Below, in pieces: positions 1 to 7,681 of a stretch of DNA of 64,000 bases. The translations under genes and the position numbers were made by a program. Source of the stretch: an uncultured Haliea sp. (GTDB lineage Bacteria > Pseudomonadota > Gammaproteobacteria > Pseudomonadales > Halieaceae). Within the stretch, counting starts at the first letter, position 1; each line of letters opens with the position of its first letter. Location of the stretch: the NCBI GenBank assembly GCA_913061145.1, contig CAJXUQ010000015.1, positions 1 through 64,000 of the forward strand, written 5' to 3'. The notes below the pieces were generated by a model, which saw nothing but the letters and a program-made list of their open reading frames with translations, had not been told where the DNA came from and searched no databases.

Positions 1-26
1 GGCTCGGAGATGTGTATAAGAGACAG
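1..26 (+). other. Nextera sequencing adapter remnant
   Basis: Bases 8-26 read AGATGTGTATAAGAGACAG, the 19-bp Tn5 mosaic end used in Nextera libraries, and bases 1-7 (GGCTCGG) match the adjoining read-2 adapter sequence. This is synthetic DNA left untrimmed at a contig edge. Real sequence starts at 27. Confidence 0.97.
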
Positions 27-105
27 GGAATGGGGTCAAGGGGAAAGGCCCTACCTTGAAAAGGCCAAAAAGGCTCTCCCGCCAGTCCGTCACTTGGGTG
101 TCGTC

Positions 106-1953
106 ATGTTCTCGCTGTTCCAACGCAAAAGGGTGCCAACCGCCGGCACACCGTCCACCGCCTCCATAGCGATGCCCCAAGGGCTGACCCGGCCGGAGTC
201 GGCCGCCTCGCTGCTGGCGACGCCACGCCGGCGGAAGCTGCTGGAACACATCTGGCAACGGACCTCGCTGTCGCGCAAGCAATTCGCCACGCTGTACCTG
301 ACACCCCTGGAGCGCTACGCCGAGCTGGTGCAACAGTTCCCCGCCTCCGAGAGTCACCATCACGCCTATCCGGGCGGCATGCTGGATCACGGCCTGGAGA
401 TCGTGGCCTACGCATTGAAGCTGCGACAGTCGCATCTGCTGCCCGCCGGGGTCACGCCGGAAGCGCAGGCGGCCCAGGCCGAGGCCTGGACTGCGGGCAC
501 CGCTTACGCGGCCCTGCTGCACGACATCGGCAAGATCGCCGTCGATCTGCATGTCGAATATGCCGATGGCACTCTCTGGCATCCCTGGCATGGCCCGTTG
601 CAGCGGCCGTATCGCTTCCGCTACCGCAAGGATCGCGAGTATCGGCTGCACGGTGCCGCCACCGGACTGCTGTACACCCGGCTGCTGGACCGCGAGATTC
701 TCGACTGGCTCAACGGCTTCTCCGATCTGTGGGCTTCCCTGCTGTACGTCCTGGCCGGCCAGTACGAGCACGCCGGCACCCTTGGCGAACTGGTCGTGCA
801 GGCCGACCAAGCCTCCGTCGCTCAGGAACTTGGCGGCGACCCGAACAAGGCGCTGGCCGCACCCAGGCACGCGCTACAACGCAAGCTGCTCGACGGCCTG
901 CGCTATTTGCTAAAAGAGGAGTTCAAGCTGAACCAGCCCCAGGCTTCGGACGGCTGGCTGACCCAGGACGCGCTCTGGCTGGTGAGCAAGACCGTCTCCG
1001 ACAAGCTGCGGGCGCATCTGCTATCGCAGGGCATCGATGGCATCCCGGCCAGCAACACGGCAGTGTTCAACGTGCTTCAGGACCATGGCATCGCCCTGGC
1101 CACGCCGGACGGTAAGGCGATCTGGAAAGCCACGGTCGCGAGCGATGCCGGCTGGTCGCACAGCTTCACCTTTCTGAAACTGTCCCCGGCGATGATTTGG
1201 GAAGCGTCCGACCGGCCGGCAGCCTTCGCGGGCACCGTACAGGTGGAGCCGGAAGGGTCGGCGGCACAGACACCCGCACCCGAGGCCATCGACGTGGAAA
1301 CAGGGGAATCCGCCCCGGTGACTACCGAGTCCACCACATCAACGACTGCCGACAGCAGCGTCGAGGAGCTGCTGGAACTGCTCGATTCGTCTCCCGCGTC
1401 CACTGCTACGGCCATGCCGCTTCAGCCCCTCGCTGAGAAGCCCGCGCCGTTGCCGGACCATAAGCCCGCCGACACCACGCCGGTCCAGGCAGTACACCAA
1501 GGCGACGCCGATCCATCCGGTGCTCATTTTCTCGCGTGGCTGCGTCAGAGCATCCAGACGCGCAAGCTCATCATCAACGACGCCAAGGCGCTGGTACATA
1601 CCGTGGCCGACACGGCGTATCTCGTGAGTCCCGGCGTGTTCCAGCGCTACGCGCAGGAGCACCCGCAGATCACCGCCCTGGCCAAGCAGGACAAGCTACC
1701 GGAATGGCAGTGGGTACAAAAGCGGTTCGAGAAGCTGGGCCTGCACCGCAAACAGGCCAGCGGGCTGAACATCTGGAATTGCGAAGTGACGGGGCCTCGC
1801 AAGTCCAGGCGGCTGCACGGATACCTGCTGACCAGCCCCGATACGCTGTTCCATGAGATACCCCCGAACAATCCTTACCTGCGCCTCGCCAACGCCGAGG
1901 CACAGCGTGACGACTCGGCGTTTCATGCCAAGAACGATGACGAGCAGGAATAG
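106..1953 (+). CDS. MobH-family conjugative relaxase (TraI_2 domain)
   Basis: A 615-residue protein that should nick the transfer origin of an integrative conjugative element and lead the strand into the recipient. The N-terminal part carries the TraI_2 signature: HHHAYPGGMLDHGLEI near residues 84-98 and the HD-type metal site LLHDIGK with H139-D140. A Pro/Ala/Thr-rich linker of roughly 130 residues follows, then a C-terminal TraI_2_C/DUF1528-type domain (about 480-590). I chose ATG 106 because the family normally begins with a short MFSLF-like start and because the frame upstream runs into the adapter; no clear ribosome site is visible. It lies beside a regulator and an integrase, which supports an ICE end. 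Family assignment is from recognisable motifs; activity is inferred. Confidence 0.88.
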   Translation: MFSLFQRKRVPTAGTPSTASIAMPQGLTRPESAASLLATPRRRKLLEHIWQRTSLSRKQFATLYLTPLERYAELVQQFPASESHHHAYPGGMLDHGLEIVAYALKLRQSHLLPAGVTPEAQAAQAEAWTAGTAYAALLHDIGKIAVDLHVEYADGTLWHPWHGPLQRPYRFRYRKDREYRLHGAATGLLYTRLLDREILDWLNGFSDLWASLLYVLAGQYEHAGTLGELVVQADQASVAQELGGDPNKALAAPRHALQRKLLDGLRYLLKEEFKLNQPQASDGWLTQDALWLVSKTVSDKLRAHLLSQGIDGIPASNTAVFNVLQDHGIALATPDGKAIWKATVASDAGWSHSFTFLKLSPAMIWEASDRPAAFAGTVQVEPEGSAAQTPAPEAIDVETGESAPVTTESTTSTTADSSVEELLELLDSSPASTATAMPLQPLAEKPAPLPDHKPADTTPVQAVHQGDADPSGAHFLAWLRQSIQTRKLIINDAKALVHTVADTAYLVSPGVFQRYAQEHPQITALAKQDKLPEWQWVQKRFEKLGLHRKQASGLNIWNCEVTGPRKSRRLHGYLLTSPDTLFHEIPPNNPYLRLANAEAQRDDSAFHAKNDDEQE

Positions 1954-1971
1954 GATGCGACGCCGGCGCCC

Positions 1972-2277
1972 TCAGTTGCCGCGCTTGGGCGGGTCCGATT
2001 CGGCCAGCTTGGCCTCCATCGCAGCCATCAGGTGGGCAGAGCTGCACTTCAGGGCGCGGGCGATCTTGAGGATCAGAGGAAGCGTGGGAATGTGCTCGCC
2101 CCGCTCGATCTTGCCCATGTGCGACCGCTCGATTCCGGCCAGGTGGGCCAGCGTTTCCTGCGCGATCCCCTGGTCCGTTCTTTCCTCCCGCACCACTGCC
2201 CCAAACGCGATCGCTGGTTCCGCTTCGTATGTTGTTGTCCCGGCTGGTCGGCCGCGTTGAATCGATCGCTTTTGCAT
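1972..2277 (-). CDS. XRE-family helix-turn-helix regulator
   Basis: A 101-residue DNA-binding protein. The Cro/C1-type helix-turn-helix covers about residues 30-85: GAVVREERTDQGIAQETLAHLAG followed in the family order by the recognition helix IERSHMGKIERGEH and LPLILKIARAL. Such small regulators usually repress their own promoter and neighbouring element genes. It is divergent from the LysR-like gene, with a perfect 8-bp inverted repeat between them (2318-2342). ATG 2277 is preferred; an upstream TTG at 2283 would add two residues. It overlaps nothing and lies 18 bp from the convergent end of the relaxase gene. Confidence 0.85.
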   Translation of the reverse strand: MQKRSIQRGRPAGTTTYEAEPAIAFGAVVREERTDQGIAQETLAHLAGIERSHMGKIERGEHIPTLPLILKIARALKCSSAHLMAAMEAKLAESDPPKRGN

Positions 2278-2317
2278 TGCCAAAAGCGTCGATCAGGGCC
2301 ACGATATAAACCACGTT

Positions 2318-2342
2318 AAACTTAACTCATTCGATTAAGTTT
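2318..2342. promoter_or_regulatory. Palindromic operator candidate between divergent regulators
   Basis: AAACTTAA (2318-2325) and TTAAGTTT (2335-2342) form a perfect 8-bp inverted repeat around a 9-bp centre, in an AT-rich spacer between the XRE and LysR-like genes. Its position suggests the binding site of the XRE protein; this is inference. Confidence 0.55.
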
Positions 2343-2371
2343 CCATGCTTTAGCGCCTTCGGAAGTTGCAC

Positions 2372-2998
2372 GTGAGATCGATCGACGTCTCCACTGAAAT
2401 CCGCCTGGCAGTCCTCGGCGATTGGGTTCCTCCCCAACTCGCCGACGTGCTCGCCATACAGCGCGCCGAAGAACCTGAAACCCTGGCAGTTCTGATCGAC
2501 ACAGCGGCCACCGGACAACAACAGGAACGACCTGGTGACGGCTTCGACTTCGCGTTGTCCGCCACCCATCGGGAGTGGCCTGGCTGGCTCTGCGAACCGC
2601 TGTGGCACGACACCCTGGCCGTCGCTGTGGCAAAGCGATCCCACTTGCTGGCCTACCGAGAAGTACCCTGCCAGGAAGCGCTCAAACAGCCGCTGATCTA
2701 CGCGCGATCAACGGCCGAAGAGTCGTGGCGCACGCTCGCACAGAGCGCATTCGAGAACGAATTGCGGGACCGCGAAGCAGCCGTCAGTACGTTCGAGGTC
2801 GCCATGACGCTGGTCGCAGCGGGGTACGGAATCGCCGTGGCCCCATCCACGAGACTTGCCGGGTATCGATGCCAGGGCATCGCCCTGCGGCCGCTGGCGA
2901 GCGCACCGATGATCGTGACCGCCTACCTGATTAGACCCGACGTTGCCCTGACGGAGCCTCAAGAGGGCTTTCTTCGACGCGCCCGCTCAATGTCCTGA
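2372..2998 (+). CDS. LysR-type substrate-binding domain protein lacking the HTH
   Basis: A 208-residue protein that resembles only the effector-binding half of a LysR regulator: two alpha/beta lobes with stretches such as CEPLWHDTLAVAVAKRSHLL, STFEVAMTLVAAGYGIAVAPS and ALRPLASAPMIVTAYLI. The normal N-terminal winged helix-turn-helix of about 60 residues is absent, and the upstream 90 bp do not encode one in any frame I can see. GTG 2372 is chosen because GGAAG lies 6 bp upstream; a TTG at 2366 is possible. It probably senses a small molecule or modulates a partner rather than binding DNA itself. It sits between the XRE gene and the integrase. Confidence 0.72.
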   Translation: MRSIDVSTEIRLAVLGDWVPPQLADVLAIQRAEEPETLAVLIDTAATGQQQERPGDGFDFALSATHREWPGWLCEPLWHDTLAVAVAKRSHLLAYREVPCQEALKQPLIYARSTAEESWRTLAQSAFENELRDREAAVSTFEVAMTLVAAGYGIAVAPSTRLAGYRCQGIALRPLASAPMIVTAYLIRPDVALTEPQEGFLRRARSMS

Positions 2999-3023
2999 GC
3001 AGCCTCTCAGCCCGGCACGCGCC

Positions 3024-4292
3024 TCACTCCCGCTCGATGACCCGCAGCAAGGCCCTGCGCCGTTTCGACAGCGGCCCGAAGGTTGCCATGACCTCGTTCA
3101 TCGAATCGCCACGAGCCATCGCATCGAGGATGTCCGCCCAATCCTGCATGATGATCTTCCGCGATGCGATGTACTTGGTGTGGTCGTAGGGTGCGCGCGA
3201 CGAATCTTTCTTCCGCTTCGAGTGGGCCAGTTGCAGATCAACCCGGTTCTCTGGGTAGCTCAACAAGCCGAGCAGCGTGGTCGCTGTTGAGCGGAAGCCG
3301 TGCGAAGAAAACTGTCCACCGTAGCCCATGCGCTCCAACACCTTGTTGAGCGTCGTAGCCGACATAACCGTTCCCGGCTTCCTGAAGCCGGGAAACAGCA
3401 CCTTCCCTCCGCCTGTCAGCGTGTGCAGTTCTTTCAACAGCACGATGGCCTGCTTCGAGAGCGGAACGATGTGAGGGTCGCGCATCTTCATGCGCCCCGC
3501 AGGAACCGTCCACATCGCACTGTCCAGATCGAACTCGGACCAGTGCGCCTTGCGCAGTTCGGCCGTGCGGACATAAGTGAGGGCCATCAATCGCAGTGCA
3601 ATGACAGTGACCCGGTAACCTGCATCATCCACACGGCTCAAGAACTTCGGGATCTCTTGCCACGGTAGCGGTGGATGGTGTCGAACTCGGGGGCGCTTGA
3701 CCGACCGTTTCAGCAGCGCCGTCGGATCACTGTCGCAAAGCTCTTCACCCGCCGCGTATGCGAAGATTTGGCTGCACAATTGCCTGATCAGGATCGCAAC
3801 GGTGGGAGCGCCGCGCTCCGCAACATCCTTAATGACGGGGCGCAGGTGAGCAGTCCGGATTGAGCTGACCGGCAGCTTGCCCACTTTGGGAAAAACATCG
3901 TTCTCCAAAGTGCGCTTGACTTGATCGGCGTAACCCTCGCTCCACTGCACGTTGCTCGCCATCCATCTGCGAGCCACTGGCTCAAAGGTGTTCTCGTTCT
4001 TTTCAAGCTGAGTGGAGATGTTGACTCTCTTCTCCACCACGGGGTGTACGCCCTTCTTGACGAGTTCCCGCGCGCGATCCCGCTCGGTCCGCGCCGCCTC
4101 CAGTGAGACCTGGGGGTACTTGCCGATCGCGTAGATGGCAGGCTTTCCGCCAAGCCGATAGCGGTAGCGCCACAACTTGCTTCCGCTGGGCGTGACGTAC
4201 AGAAATAGACTACCCCCGTCCTTGAGCCAGTACGGTTCTTTTTGGGAAGGAATGGTCTCGACCTTCCTGGCCGAGAGCAGGTTCATGGCCAT
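3024..4292 (-). CDS. int: P4-type tyrosine integrase
   Basis: A 422-residue site-specific recombinase expected to insert and excise the element. The N-terminal DUF4102 arm-binding domain spans about 1-90 (YWLKDGGSLFLYVTPSGSKLWRYRY is typical in pattern), a core-binding SAM-like domain 100-195, and the catalytic domain 205-395 with R242 (YVRTAELR), H331-xx-R334 (HGFR), H357 and nucleophile Y369 in APYDH, followed by the usual ASRK-x5-W ending. All key residues are present, so it should be active. ATG 4292 is preceded by AGGTGA; ATG 4286 is an alternative start. Its start faces the chromosome junction at 4450, the usual layout for an integrase next to its attachment site. Confidence 0.93.
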   Translation of the reverse strand: MAMNLLSARKVETIPSQKEPYWLKDGGSLFLYVTPSGSKLWRYRYRLGGKPAIYAIGKYPQVSLEAARTERDRARELVKKGVHPVVEKRVNISTQLEKNENTFEPVARRWMASNVQWSEGYADQVKRTLENDVFPKVGKLPVSSIRTAHLRPVIKDVAERGAPTVAILIRQLCSQIFAYAAGEELCDSDPTALLKRSVKRPRVRHHPPLPWQEIPKFLSRVDDAGYRVTVIALRLMALTYVRTAELRKAHWSEFDLDSAMWTVPAGRMKMRDPHIVPLSKQAIVLLKELHTLTGGGKVLFPGFRKPGTVMSATTLNKVLERMGYGGQFSSHGFRSTATTLLGLLSYPENRVDLQLAHSKRKKDSSRAPYDHTKYIASRKIIMQDWADILDAMARGDSMNEVMATFGPLSKRRRALLRVIERE

Positions 4293-4342
4293 GTGTGTAT
4301 ATCACCTCTCTTGAGGTCCTATATACACAGAAATATACACAC
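4293..4342. promoter_or_regulatory. Inverted repeats in the integrase promoter region
   Basis: GTGTGTATAT (4293-4302) and ATATACACAC (4333-4342) are a perfect 10-bp inverted repeat; a second ATATACACA copy sits at 4321-4329. Between them ACCTC/GAGGT (4304-4317) makes a small hairpin. The block abuts the integrase start and could bind an excisionase, the integrase arm domain or a repressor. Confidence 0.5.
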
Positions 4343-4450
4343 TTGCAGCAGATTGGTCTAGCCTTCACCAGACCATCAAGGAAGTCACATCAATACAAAT
4401 CAACAACTTACACTTTCTCCATGGAACACGGTGGAGCTTGATGGATGCTA
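4343..4450. other. Element end / attachment-site region
   Basis: AT-richer non-coding DNA between the integrase promoter and the chromosome. It holds small inverted repeats: TGGTCT/AGACCA (4354-4375) and CTCCA/TGGAG (4417-4436), the kind of arms often found in att regions. The boundary with chromosomal trpG sequence is at about 4450/4451. No tRNA gene is present here. Confidence 0.5.
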
Positions 4451-4483
4451 ATCGTAGTTGTCGATCATCAGAATGTCAGGCAT
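4448..4483 (-). pseudogene. trpG: 5' fragment of trpG cut by the element
   Basis: Read on the minus strand from ATG at 4483, the sequence encodes MPDILMIDNYD and then a TAG stop at 4450-4448. ILMIDNYD is the near-invariant start of anthranilate synthase component II (normally continuing SFTYN). A ribosome site (AAGGGA) lies 8 bp before the ATG. The break comes right after codon 11, where element DNA begins, so only the start of the glutamine amidotransferase remains on this side. The rest of trpG, with trpD and trpC, would be expected beyond the other end of the element. A second in-frame ATG exists at 4519 but lacks a better ribosome site. Confidence 0.85.
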
Positions 4484-4523
4484 GGTCGTCCCTTGCAGCG
4501 TGGGGCGTGAGTTTACCATGCCT
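4478..4523 (-). promoter_or_regulatory. Hairpin covering the trpG start codon
   Basis: On the transcript, AGGCAUGGU (from 4523-4515) can pair perfectly over 9 bp with ACCAUGCCU (4486-4478), which contains the trpG AUG. The 28-nt loop holds the ribosome-binding site. This would make start-codon access depend on folding; function is inferred only. Confidence 0.4.
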
Positions 4524-4614
4524 CAGGGCGCTGCGAGAGGGCAGCTCACAACGCACCCGGTAAAGATACCTGCGGCCCACAGCCCTGGCCCGCGAAAGAG
4601 GCCGCTGCACCCTG

Positions 4615-5517
4615 CTACTCAGCCGGGGCGCGGCACTCCCGGGGCTTTTCCAGCACCAGTACATCCTGGAAAAACGGCCCCGGCACTTCTTTCCAGTTGC
4701 CGTGATAGTGGGCGGCGAGCCGCAGCTGGCTGGCCTCCAGCAGGCTGGCCAGGCCCACCGGCGTCATGCCGATGGCCTCCTCCGGCACCTGCGCCCAGCC
4801 GGGACACAACCACTCGGATGAGCCGTAAGCGGGCTGGTCGAACACCCAGCGCTCAAGCGGCGTGGCGTGAAAGCGCGCGGCCTTGTCCGCAGCGCGCGGC
4901 AAGGTGGCGTGATACGCCTCATCCAGCAGAAACACCGTCACCAGCGCCTTGCCGCCGGGCTCCAGCACGCGCGCCAGCTCCGCCATATAGAAACGGGCGT
5001 CCCGTTCGTTGAAATGCGTCCACACCGACAGTGCAGTCACCAGCTGTTGCCCAGCGTCGGCGATCGGCCAGGGGGCGCCCGCTGCTGTCTGGTCAGGCGC
5101 GTAGAACGGATTGGCGGTGTCCAGGTGCAGGAAACGGTAGTGCTCACCCTGGTAGTGCTGGCGACAGAATGCAAGCTGCTCGGCAGCCACATCCAGGCCG
5201 GTGTAGCAGCCGCCGCGACCCAGAAAGGGTTCGCAGGCAATGGCCAGCAGGCCGGCACCACAGCCGACATCCAGCACGCGCAGGTCTTCCCGCCAGCCGA
5301 TATGCTGGCCAATGAGCGTCTGGAAGATGCCGATAACGTGGGCCCACTCGGCATAGGCATACTTGCCACCGCGACGCCGCTTCTCCCCGGGTATCAGCCG
5401 CAGGTTGCGGGTGCGCAGCACGCGGGCCTGGTCTTCAGGCAGATACAGTTCATCGAGCAGCGCGTAGGGGTGCTCGCAGTGTGCCAGCAGAGCCTGCAGC
5501 TGCTCGCGCACGCTCAC
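4615..5517 (-). CDS. Class I SAM-dependent methyltransferase in the trp operon
   Basis: A 300-residue soluble protein. The SAM-binding fold is visible: motif [18 protein letters not shown] (about residues 82-98), an acidic end of strand 2 in CYTGLDVA, motif with HLDTANPF, and [31 protein letters not shown] for the post-core strands. The substrate is not recognisable. It starts with GTG in a GTGA overlap with the trpE stop and ends 131 bp before trpG, so it is translationally coupled to trpE. Its placement between the two anthranilate synthase subunits is unusual; it could modify a tryptophan- or anthranilate-derived product, or simply ride in the operon. Confidence 0.85.
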
Positions 5518-7004
5518 GGCGAGTCTAGCCCGGCCAGCACCATGGACGCCGCGCGGAACATGGCGCGCGCCTTATTGTGAGTTTCCTTCCACTCCAGGCG
5601 GGGCACCGAGTCGGCGACCACGCCAGCGCCCACCTGGATGTACAGCTTGCCGTCCTTGATCACCGCGGTACGGATGGCGATGGCGGTGTCCATCTCGCCG
5701 GCCCAGGACAGATACCCGACGGCGCCGCCATAAACGCCGCGCTTTACCGGCTCCAGTTCGTCAATGATTTCCATCGCACGTATTTTGGGCGCCCCGCTCA
5801 GGGTGCCGGCGGGCAGGGTGGCCCGCAGTACATCGATCGCCGACTTGCCCGGCTGCAACTGGCCACAGACATTGGACACGATGTGCATGACGTGGGAATA
5901 CCGCTCCACCGCCATCTTGTCGCTGAGGGTGACGGAGCCGATACGGGCAATACGACCGATGTCGTTACGCCCCAGGTCGATGAGCATGAGGTGTTCGGCG
6001 ATCTCCTTGGGGTCCGCGAGCAATTCCGCCTCCAGCGCCTTGTCCTCGGCCTCGCTGTAGCCGCGCCGGCGGGTCCCGGCCAGCGGGCGCACGGTCACTT
6101 CATTGTTCTGCAGGCGGGCGAGGATCTCCGGGGACGACCCCACGATATGGAAGTCCCCGAGATCCAGATAGTACATATAGGGCGAGGGGTTCAGGTTGCG
6201 CAGCGCCCGGTACAGATTCAGGGGCGGCGCGCTGAACGGCACCTGGAGGCGCTGCGAAGGCACAACCTGCATCACGTCGCCGGCCAGCACATAGTCCTTG
6301 ATACGCTCTACAACCCGGGCGAAGCCCGCCTCGTCGAAATGCGACGTCGCTGAGGCCTCAAGCGCATCGCTATCGGCGCCGCCCAGCGCCACATCCGGTA
6401 ACGGCGGCATGGGTTCACGCAGTTTCAGCGCGAGCCTGCTCAGGCGCTCCCGCGCCTCCTGCAGCGCGCCGGGCCGCTGCGGGTCGGCGTTGATGATCAG
6501 GCGGATGGTGCCGGACAGATTGTCGAACACCAGCACCTCTTCCGACACCATGAGCAGGATATCGGGGTTGCCGAGCTCGTCCCGGGGGGCGCCAGCGCGC
6601 AGCCGAGGCTCCACGTAGCGCACCGTGTCATACCCGAAGTAACCCACCAGCCCACCGTGGAATACCGGCAGGCCGGCATCCGGTGCGCTGCGATAGCGCT
6701 GCTGGAAGTCCTCGACGTACTGCAGCGGGTCGGCGACCTCGGCCTGCTCGACCACAGCGCCATCCACCAGCACCTCGACGCGGTTGCCGAACACCCGCAA
6801 CAACGTGCGGCAGGGCAGGCCGATGATCGAATAGCGCCCCCACTTTTCGCCGCCCTGCACGGACTCGAAGAAGTAGGAGAAGGCCCCTTCACCCAGCTTG
6901 CGATAGGTGCTGACCGGAGTTTCGAGATCTGCCAGCACTTCGGTGCTGACCGGGATACGATTGTAACCCTGTGCCGCGAGGGCGCTGAATTCTGCCTCGT
7001 TCAT
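5514..7004 (-). CDS. trpE: Anthranilate synthase component I
   Basis: A 496-residue enzyme converting chorismate and ammonia (from TrpG) to anthranilate, the first step of tryptophan synthesis. The N-terminal regulatory part has [20 protein letters not shown], the LLES-type region that binds tryptophan for feedback inhibition. The C-terminal chorismate-binding domain has [34 protein letters not shown] and VQVGAG-like ([11 protein letters not shown]) motifs. ATG 7004 begins [10 protein letters not shown] and overlaps the rpe stop by 4 bp (ATGA); a longer frame upstream is the shadow of rpe. Without an intact trpG nearby, it may use free ammonia or a TrpG made from the far side of the inserted element. 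Confidence 0.97.
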
Positions 7005-7681
7005 CGGGGCTGTTGCACCTCCGCCAGCGCCGCCCGCATCTGCGCAATCACGGCGCGGTAGTCGGGTGCATTGAAAATGGCCGAGCCGGCCACGAAGGTG
7101 TCGGCGCCCGCTGCCGCAATGTCCGCGATATTGGCCGCGGTGACGCCGCCGTCGATCTCCAGCCGGATGTCGTGGCACGAGGCGTCGATCAGGGCCCGCG
7201 CCTCGCGCAGTTTATCCAGCGTCGCCGGAATAAAGGACTGGCCGCCAAAGCCCGGGTTGACTGACATCAGCAACACCATGTCCACCTTGTCCATCACGTA
7301 GCGCAGCGCCTCGAGCCCCGCGTGCGGGTTGAACACCAGCCCGCTCTTGCAGCCGGCATCGCGGATCATCTGCAGGGATCGATCGACATGGGTCGACGCA
7401 TCGGGATGGAAGGTAATATAGCTGGCGCCGGCCTCGGCGAAGTCGCCGATCAGCCTGTCTACCGGGCTGACCATCAGGTGCACGTCTATCGGCGCCGTGA
7501 CGCCGTGCTTGCGCAGCGCCTTGCACACCATCGGGCCAATGGTGAGGTTGGGGACATAGTGGTTGTCCATGACGTCGAAGTGCACCACATCGGCGCCAGC
7601 GGCCAGCACGGCATCCACCTCTTCGCCGAGCCGAGCAAAATTCGCCGACAGGATAGAGGGGGCAATCAGGTAATCAGCCAT
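7001..7681 (-). CDS. rpe: Ribulose-phosphate 3-epimerase
   Basis: A 226-residue TIM-barrel enzyme of the pentose phosphate pathway that interconverts ribulose 5-phosphate and xylulose 5-phosphate. Family hallmarks are complete: [15 protein letters not shown] at the start, [36 protein letters not shown] and LEIDGGV. The metal ligands (H and D of HFDVMD, H of DVHLMV, D of EIDGGV) are present. In Pseudomonas gph normally separates rpe from trpE; here rpe overlaps trpE directly and gph is absent. Confidence 0.97.

Follow-up and report, generated by a model that had tools for sequence, protein, structure and literature searches.

ICEs of the PFGI-1/ICEclc/PAGI-2 class are known for insertion at the 3′ ends of tRNA genes, and phage P4 integrates at a tRNA gene. 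An element that enters a gene at its start exacts a cost unless it also rebuilds that gene, and the well-described cases (prfC and dusA) are few. According to PMC2791158, and to PMC8409611 citing Hochhut and Waldor 1999, SXT/R391 inserts at the 5′ end of prfC and gives this gene a new promoter and N-terminus. The dusA islands (IMEVchUSA3) also insert at a 5′ end, restoring the frame with an altered N-terminus, and new promoter activity and expression were demonstrated by lacZ fusion (PMC8409611). A search of the open literature found no description of trpG as the target of an ICE or island, or of the integrase clade described below. In that literature trpG was mentioned otherwise, with a pyocin cluster lying between trpE and trpG in P. 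aeruginosa, in a list of folate genes, and as the flank of a secretion island.

Here, we analysed 64,000 nucleotides from an uncultured Haliea sp. (Halieaceae; assembly GCA_913061145.1, contig CAJXUQ010000015.1, positions 1 to 64,000), hereafter called the window. The locus is very probably the site at which an ICE with a MobH relaxase of the PFGI-1 class and a P4-type integrase has integrated at the MIDNYD codons at the 5′ end of trpG, the gene being rebuilt with a foreign N-terminus. As read from the sequences compared, this conclusion is carried by the near junction in the window, the empty site in congeners, the site specificity of the whole integrase clade, and the rebuilt trpG genes of 12 related elements.

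Results

The near junction and the attachment core

A previous sequence-only reading of this DNA had described eleven codons of trpG ending in IDNYD and closed by a stop codon, with a complete P4-type integrase and a MobH relaxase behind the boundary. All of this was borne out on the minus strand and by profile searches (Table 1), which gave three domains for the integrase. The switch to element DNA that the same reading placed directly after IDNYD is real as a junction but is not a sharp border, since positions 4450-4471 form an att core shared by host and element.

Table 1. Features around the severed 5′ end of trpG, in window coordinates.
Feature	Position	Strand	Basis or detail
MobH relaxase, PFGI-1 class	10..1953	+	NCBIfam MobH, TIGR03760
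LysR substrate-binding-domain ORF, between relaxase and integrase	2366..2998	+	Pfam PF03466
P4-type tyrosine integrase, 422 aa, trpG-specific clade	3024..4292	-	Pfam Arm-DNA-bind_3, Phage_int_M, Phage_integrase
int-side element end (attL arm), carries TGTGTATA direct repeats 4320-4352	4293..4449	-	
att core CTGATGATCGACAACTACGATT, codes (L)MIDNYD, common to host and element	4450..4471	-	overlap of two homologies
trpG 5′ fragment MPDILMIDNYD, severed by element	4451..4483	-	ATG 4483-4481, then TAG 4450-4448
Host methyltransferase-like gene, between trpE and trpG	4615..5517	-	profile search
Host trpE	5514..7178	-	TIGR00564

Homology to other elements extended over window positions 25-4471, with identities of 98.1% to a Pseudomonadales MAG, 97.7% to Alcanivorax sp. 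S71-1-4 and 95.7% to a Polycyclovorans MAG, and the first 1510 bp from the core inward were identical to the Alcanivorax element. On the host side, positions 4450-4555 were 98.1% identical to the intact trpG of the congener G020, and the 61 bp directly before the core were identical to this empty site; the match between the empty-site trpG of relatives and the severed fragment that had been predicted was thus found, and reached down to 4450. Intact trpG and trpC were present in all seven congeners. Because host homology runs down to 4450 while element homology runs up to 4471, the last trpG codons belong to both and not solely to the host. The C at 4460 (codon GAC) probably arrived with the element, as the two nearest congeners have GAT and the closest elements match the C.

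The contig (C15) stops at base 1 of the window, and the assembly (3.52 Mb, 53 contigs, 97.8% complete) contains the element in fragments, as might be expected if an element contig and a host contig had been joined into a chimera during assembly or binning. However, the exact junction recurred in 22 other records, the empty site was present in congeners, and the identical stretches on the host and element sides meet within the core. The recurrent junction and shared core refute a chimera for practical purposes, and we regard its probability as negligible. Judged from these homologies, the near junction is real, far beyond chance.

The methyltransferase-like gene also adjoins trpG in the congener G019 (94.6% identity), and the element now parts host trpE from trpG-D-C. 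With the trpE-trpG unit split, the two anthranilate synthase subunits may be expressed from different signals. On the element side, the relaxase was 96-97% identical to the relaxases of three other loci (L037, L038 and L040), and neither Pfam nor a reading of the frames revealed a recognisable helix-turn-helix or DNA-binding part in the LysR-type ORF.

One integrase clade, one trpG site

A scan of bacterial genomes returned 22 further integrases with 53-100% identity to that of the window, one of them truncated, and each of the 22 has its start 174-198 bp past the MIDNYD codons of trpG. The carriers are Gamma- and Betaproteobacteria, namely Alcanivorax, Polycyclovorans, Aliidiomarina, Porticoccus, Parahaliea, Stutzerimonas, Bordetella, Denitromonas, several Burkholderiales and other MAGs. 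Parahaliea mediterranea (whose contigs appear both as G135 and as G149) is of the same family as the window's host, which is taken as one of the Halieaceae. Maximum-likelihood analysis put the trpG-site integrases on one side of a single branch with support of 100/100, and none of 500 shuffles scored as low; the trpG group in this tree comprised 22 rows including the window's own, the truncated Aliidiomarina copy being left out.

Among distant relatives (about 34-44% identity), the trpG motif lay upstream in one of the 37 scanned, from Pseudogulbenkiania ferrooxidans 2002 (L059; far junction L104). This integrase is only 43% identical and was placed outside the trpG clade, on long branches that leave its exact position unsure; at its far end, too, trpG gains an in-frame start (MLL). 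Targeting of trpG may have arisen a second time in this lineage. In collections of plasmids, phages and viral contigs, no carrier of a trpG-clade integrase was seen, as all integrases were below 60% identity (best 41-45% among the matches listed). The window's own genome contains a second P4-type integrase (G000:C16:18687-19907), which is 37% identical to the first.

Far junctions of related elements

The body of trpG was located in 12 carrier genomes (L111 and L112 being one genome), where the DNA upstream of it represents the other element end. Some of these far junctions depend on one another or stand apart, in that L108 and L110 share the same sequence ahead of the core and L104 goes with the outlying integrase. 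In all 12, the element provides a start codon and 3-5 codons that read in frame into ATGATCGAYAAY or a variant of it. The supplied N-termini (MARLL, MYKLL, MLL, MVKLL, VSKIL with a GTG start, MHKIL, MPKIL and MARIL) all lead into MIDNYDSFTYN or a closely similar sequence, giving a full-length trpG. An in-frame start combined with a Shine-Dalgarno-like 4-mer was present in 12/12 far ends, compared to a mean of 0.66 and a maximum of 4 in 2000 shuffling trials; the core itself contains an in-frame ATG. Direct repeats of the TGTGTATA type, seen in the window at 4320-4352, occur again at the far ends of related elements, so that pairs of these arm-type repeats stand both some tens of bases ahead of the trpG start that the element brings and ahead of int.

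The shared far end of L108 and L110 precedes different host trpG genes, in Polycyclovorans and Alcanivorax, and this identity would suggest that the element moved recently from one distant host to another. Core repeats were found at both ends in the Denitromonas, Porticoccus and Aliidiomarina relatives, and the distances between them gave element sizes of ~102.8 kb in Denitromonas ohlonensis, ~114.8 kb in Porticoccus and ~11.5 kb in Aliidiomarina maris. In the Aliidiomarina island (L196), the integrase is truncated (residues 1-243) and accompanied by a heavy-metal-efflux-like operon. The target of this island may be a gene of the trpG or the pabA type, the best NCBIfam equivalogs, which scored below cut-off, being aminodeoxychorismate synthase component II. 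At its end the Porticoccus trpG element carries a CusA/CzcA heavy-metal efflux gene (L192:11053-14205) oriented toward the rebuilt trpG, which makes read-through from cargo into trpG conceivable in this host.

Far end and trpGDC in the window's genome

The sequence-only reading had also proposed that the far junction recreates trpG from an element-borne start. This was observed in the 12 related elements, but the window's own far junction is absent from the assembly, in which a search with the Alcanivorax far-end DNA matched only the int-side repeats. Neither trpG nor trpD nor trpC was found in this assembly, despite its completeness of 97.8%; one match to the IDNYD pattern, on contig C7, was rejected because by eye it belongs to an isocitrate lyase-like gene. 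The absence of all three genes is what would be seen if the insertion had destroyed trpG, or if trpGDC had been lost, leaving a strain that needs tryptophan from outside. Against such a loss, trpE and trpA are kept, and the gap is bounded by contig ends: in the congeners G019 and G020, DNA lying ~7.5 kb past the trpG core aligns with the end of the window genome's contig C32 at 93-95% identity (94.5% in the comparison used to bound the gap). The intervening 7.5 kb of the congener appears, by eye, to hold purD and purH as well. Bounded in this way and extending to purD and purH, the gap points to a contig omitted from the assembly or bin, which apparently lacks a host piece and most of the element. 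Destruction of trpG also sits poorly with the full-length gene found in 12/12 relatives with a visible far junction, the only ones counted. We therefore consider loss of the gene or of the pathway in this strain highly improbable. By analogy with the related elements, trpG would be rebuilt in the window's genome too.

Two other relatives lacked a match to trpG: in G166 trpC was partial at a contig edge, and in G032 trpC was absent. Both may hide further trpG insertions.

Transfer genes

The window holds a site-specific integrase beside its attachment site and a relaxase, and transfer genes were found on another contig of the same genome (C41, 12.7 kb), unlinked to the window. C41 carries genes for TraC (TIGR03744), TIGR03752 and TIGR03746, and several of its genes are 82-91% identical to those of the Porticoccus trpG element and stand in the same order. 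Contig C41 probably belongs to the window's element. With the ATPase on this unlinked contig, both the TIGR03760 relaxase and the TIGR03744 ATPase of the PFGI-1 backbone scored over cut-off; the relaxase of the Denitromonas element is of this class too.

Some relatives are reduced, such as the 11.5 kb Aliidiomarina maris island with its truncated integrase and metal-efflux-like genes, and the rest of the element is unlinked in the window's own assembly. The element might accordingly be a mobilizable or decayed island that has kept a relaxase and an integrase and is no longer conjugative. This is unlikely given that C41 carries TraC and other transfer genes of the PFGI-1 class in the order of the 115 kb Porticoccus element. 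We infer that the element is capable of excision and conjugative transfer.

Discussion

The proposed mechanism is that integrases of this clade would recognise the DNA that encodes the region of the conserved TrpG motif IDNYDSFTYN and carry out site-specific recombination at the MIDNYD codons at the 5′ end of the gene. What stays next to int would be the promoter of the host with the start codon and the first 11 codons of the gene; at the far end, the remainder of trpG would receive a Shine-Dalgarno sequence, a start codon and 3-5 codons from the element. As trpG is split from its own start signals and yet rebuilt, the element can make its home in a conserved biosynthetic gene that survives the insertion. 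One integrase clade thereby exploits DNA that encodes an almost invariant protein motif, within a gene for amino-acid biosynthesis, which explains how the same type of element reaches hosts in many orders. From the 12 natural fusions it can be read which changes at its N-terminus TrpG tolerates, and trpG-clade integrases serve a site that is present in many tryptophan-making bacteria.

The earlier suggestion that tryptophan synthesis falls under element control can be retained for the translation-start signals seen in relatives, but not for transcription, as no promoter was recognised with confidence; simple consensus scans of three far ends (attR) found no clear sigma-70 site above chance. 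A promoter for trpG would presumably be supplied by the element. Since the signals at the far ends reach only as far as translation start, claims of control over tryptophan synthesis exceed the evidence. A more ambitious proposal is that the element governs host tryptophan synthesis, with Int or excisionase acting on the arm-type repeats and repressing or switching trpGDC, uncoupled from trpE, and with two separate integrase lineages at the same trpG codons. If true, anthranilate synthesis would be tied to the state of the element; we consider this quite unlikely.

Compared to described systems, the integrated element of the preferred reading resembles SXT/R391 in being a large conjugative element with a tyrosine integrase at the 5′ end of a conserved gene, but its target is trpG rather than prfC and its relaxase and TraC are of the PFGI-1 class. 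At its site it thus behaves as SXT does, yet it is no member of SXT/R391. The dusA islands are mobilizable islands with another target, and they replace about 35 N-terminal codons, whereas 3-5 are supplied to trpG. Target gene, integrase clade and PFGI-1 backbone set the element apart from this group as well as from SXT/R391. The window integrase is of the same type as that of phage P4, with 39% identity, and the trpG clade is separate, on a long branch. With PFGI-1/ICEclc/PAGI-2 ICEs it has in common the relaxase family TIGR03760 and, on contig C41, the TIGR03744, TIGR03746 and TIGR03752 transfer proteins; these ICEs differ in using the 3′ ends of tRNA genes where the integrase clade described here uses the start of trpG. 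Integration at a 5′ end with rebuilding of the gene is already known from prfC and dusA; what appears to be new, judging from the open literature searched, is trpG as the target and the integrase clade that recognises it.
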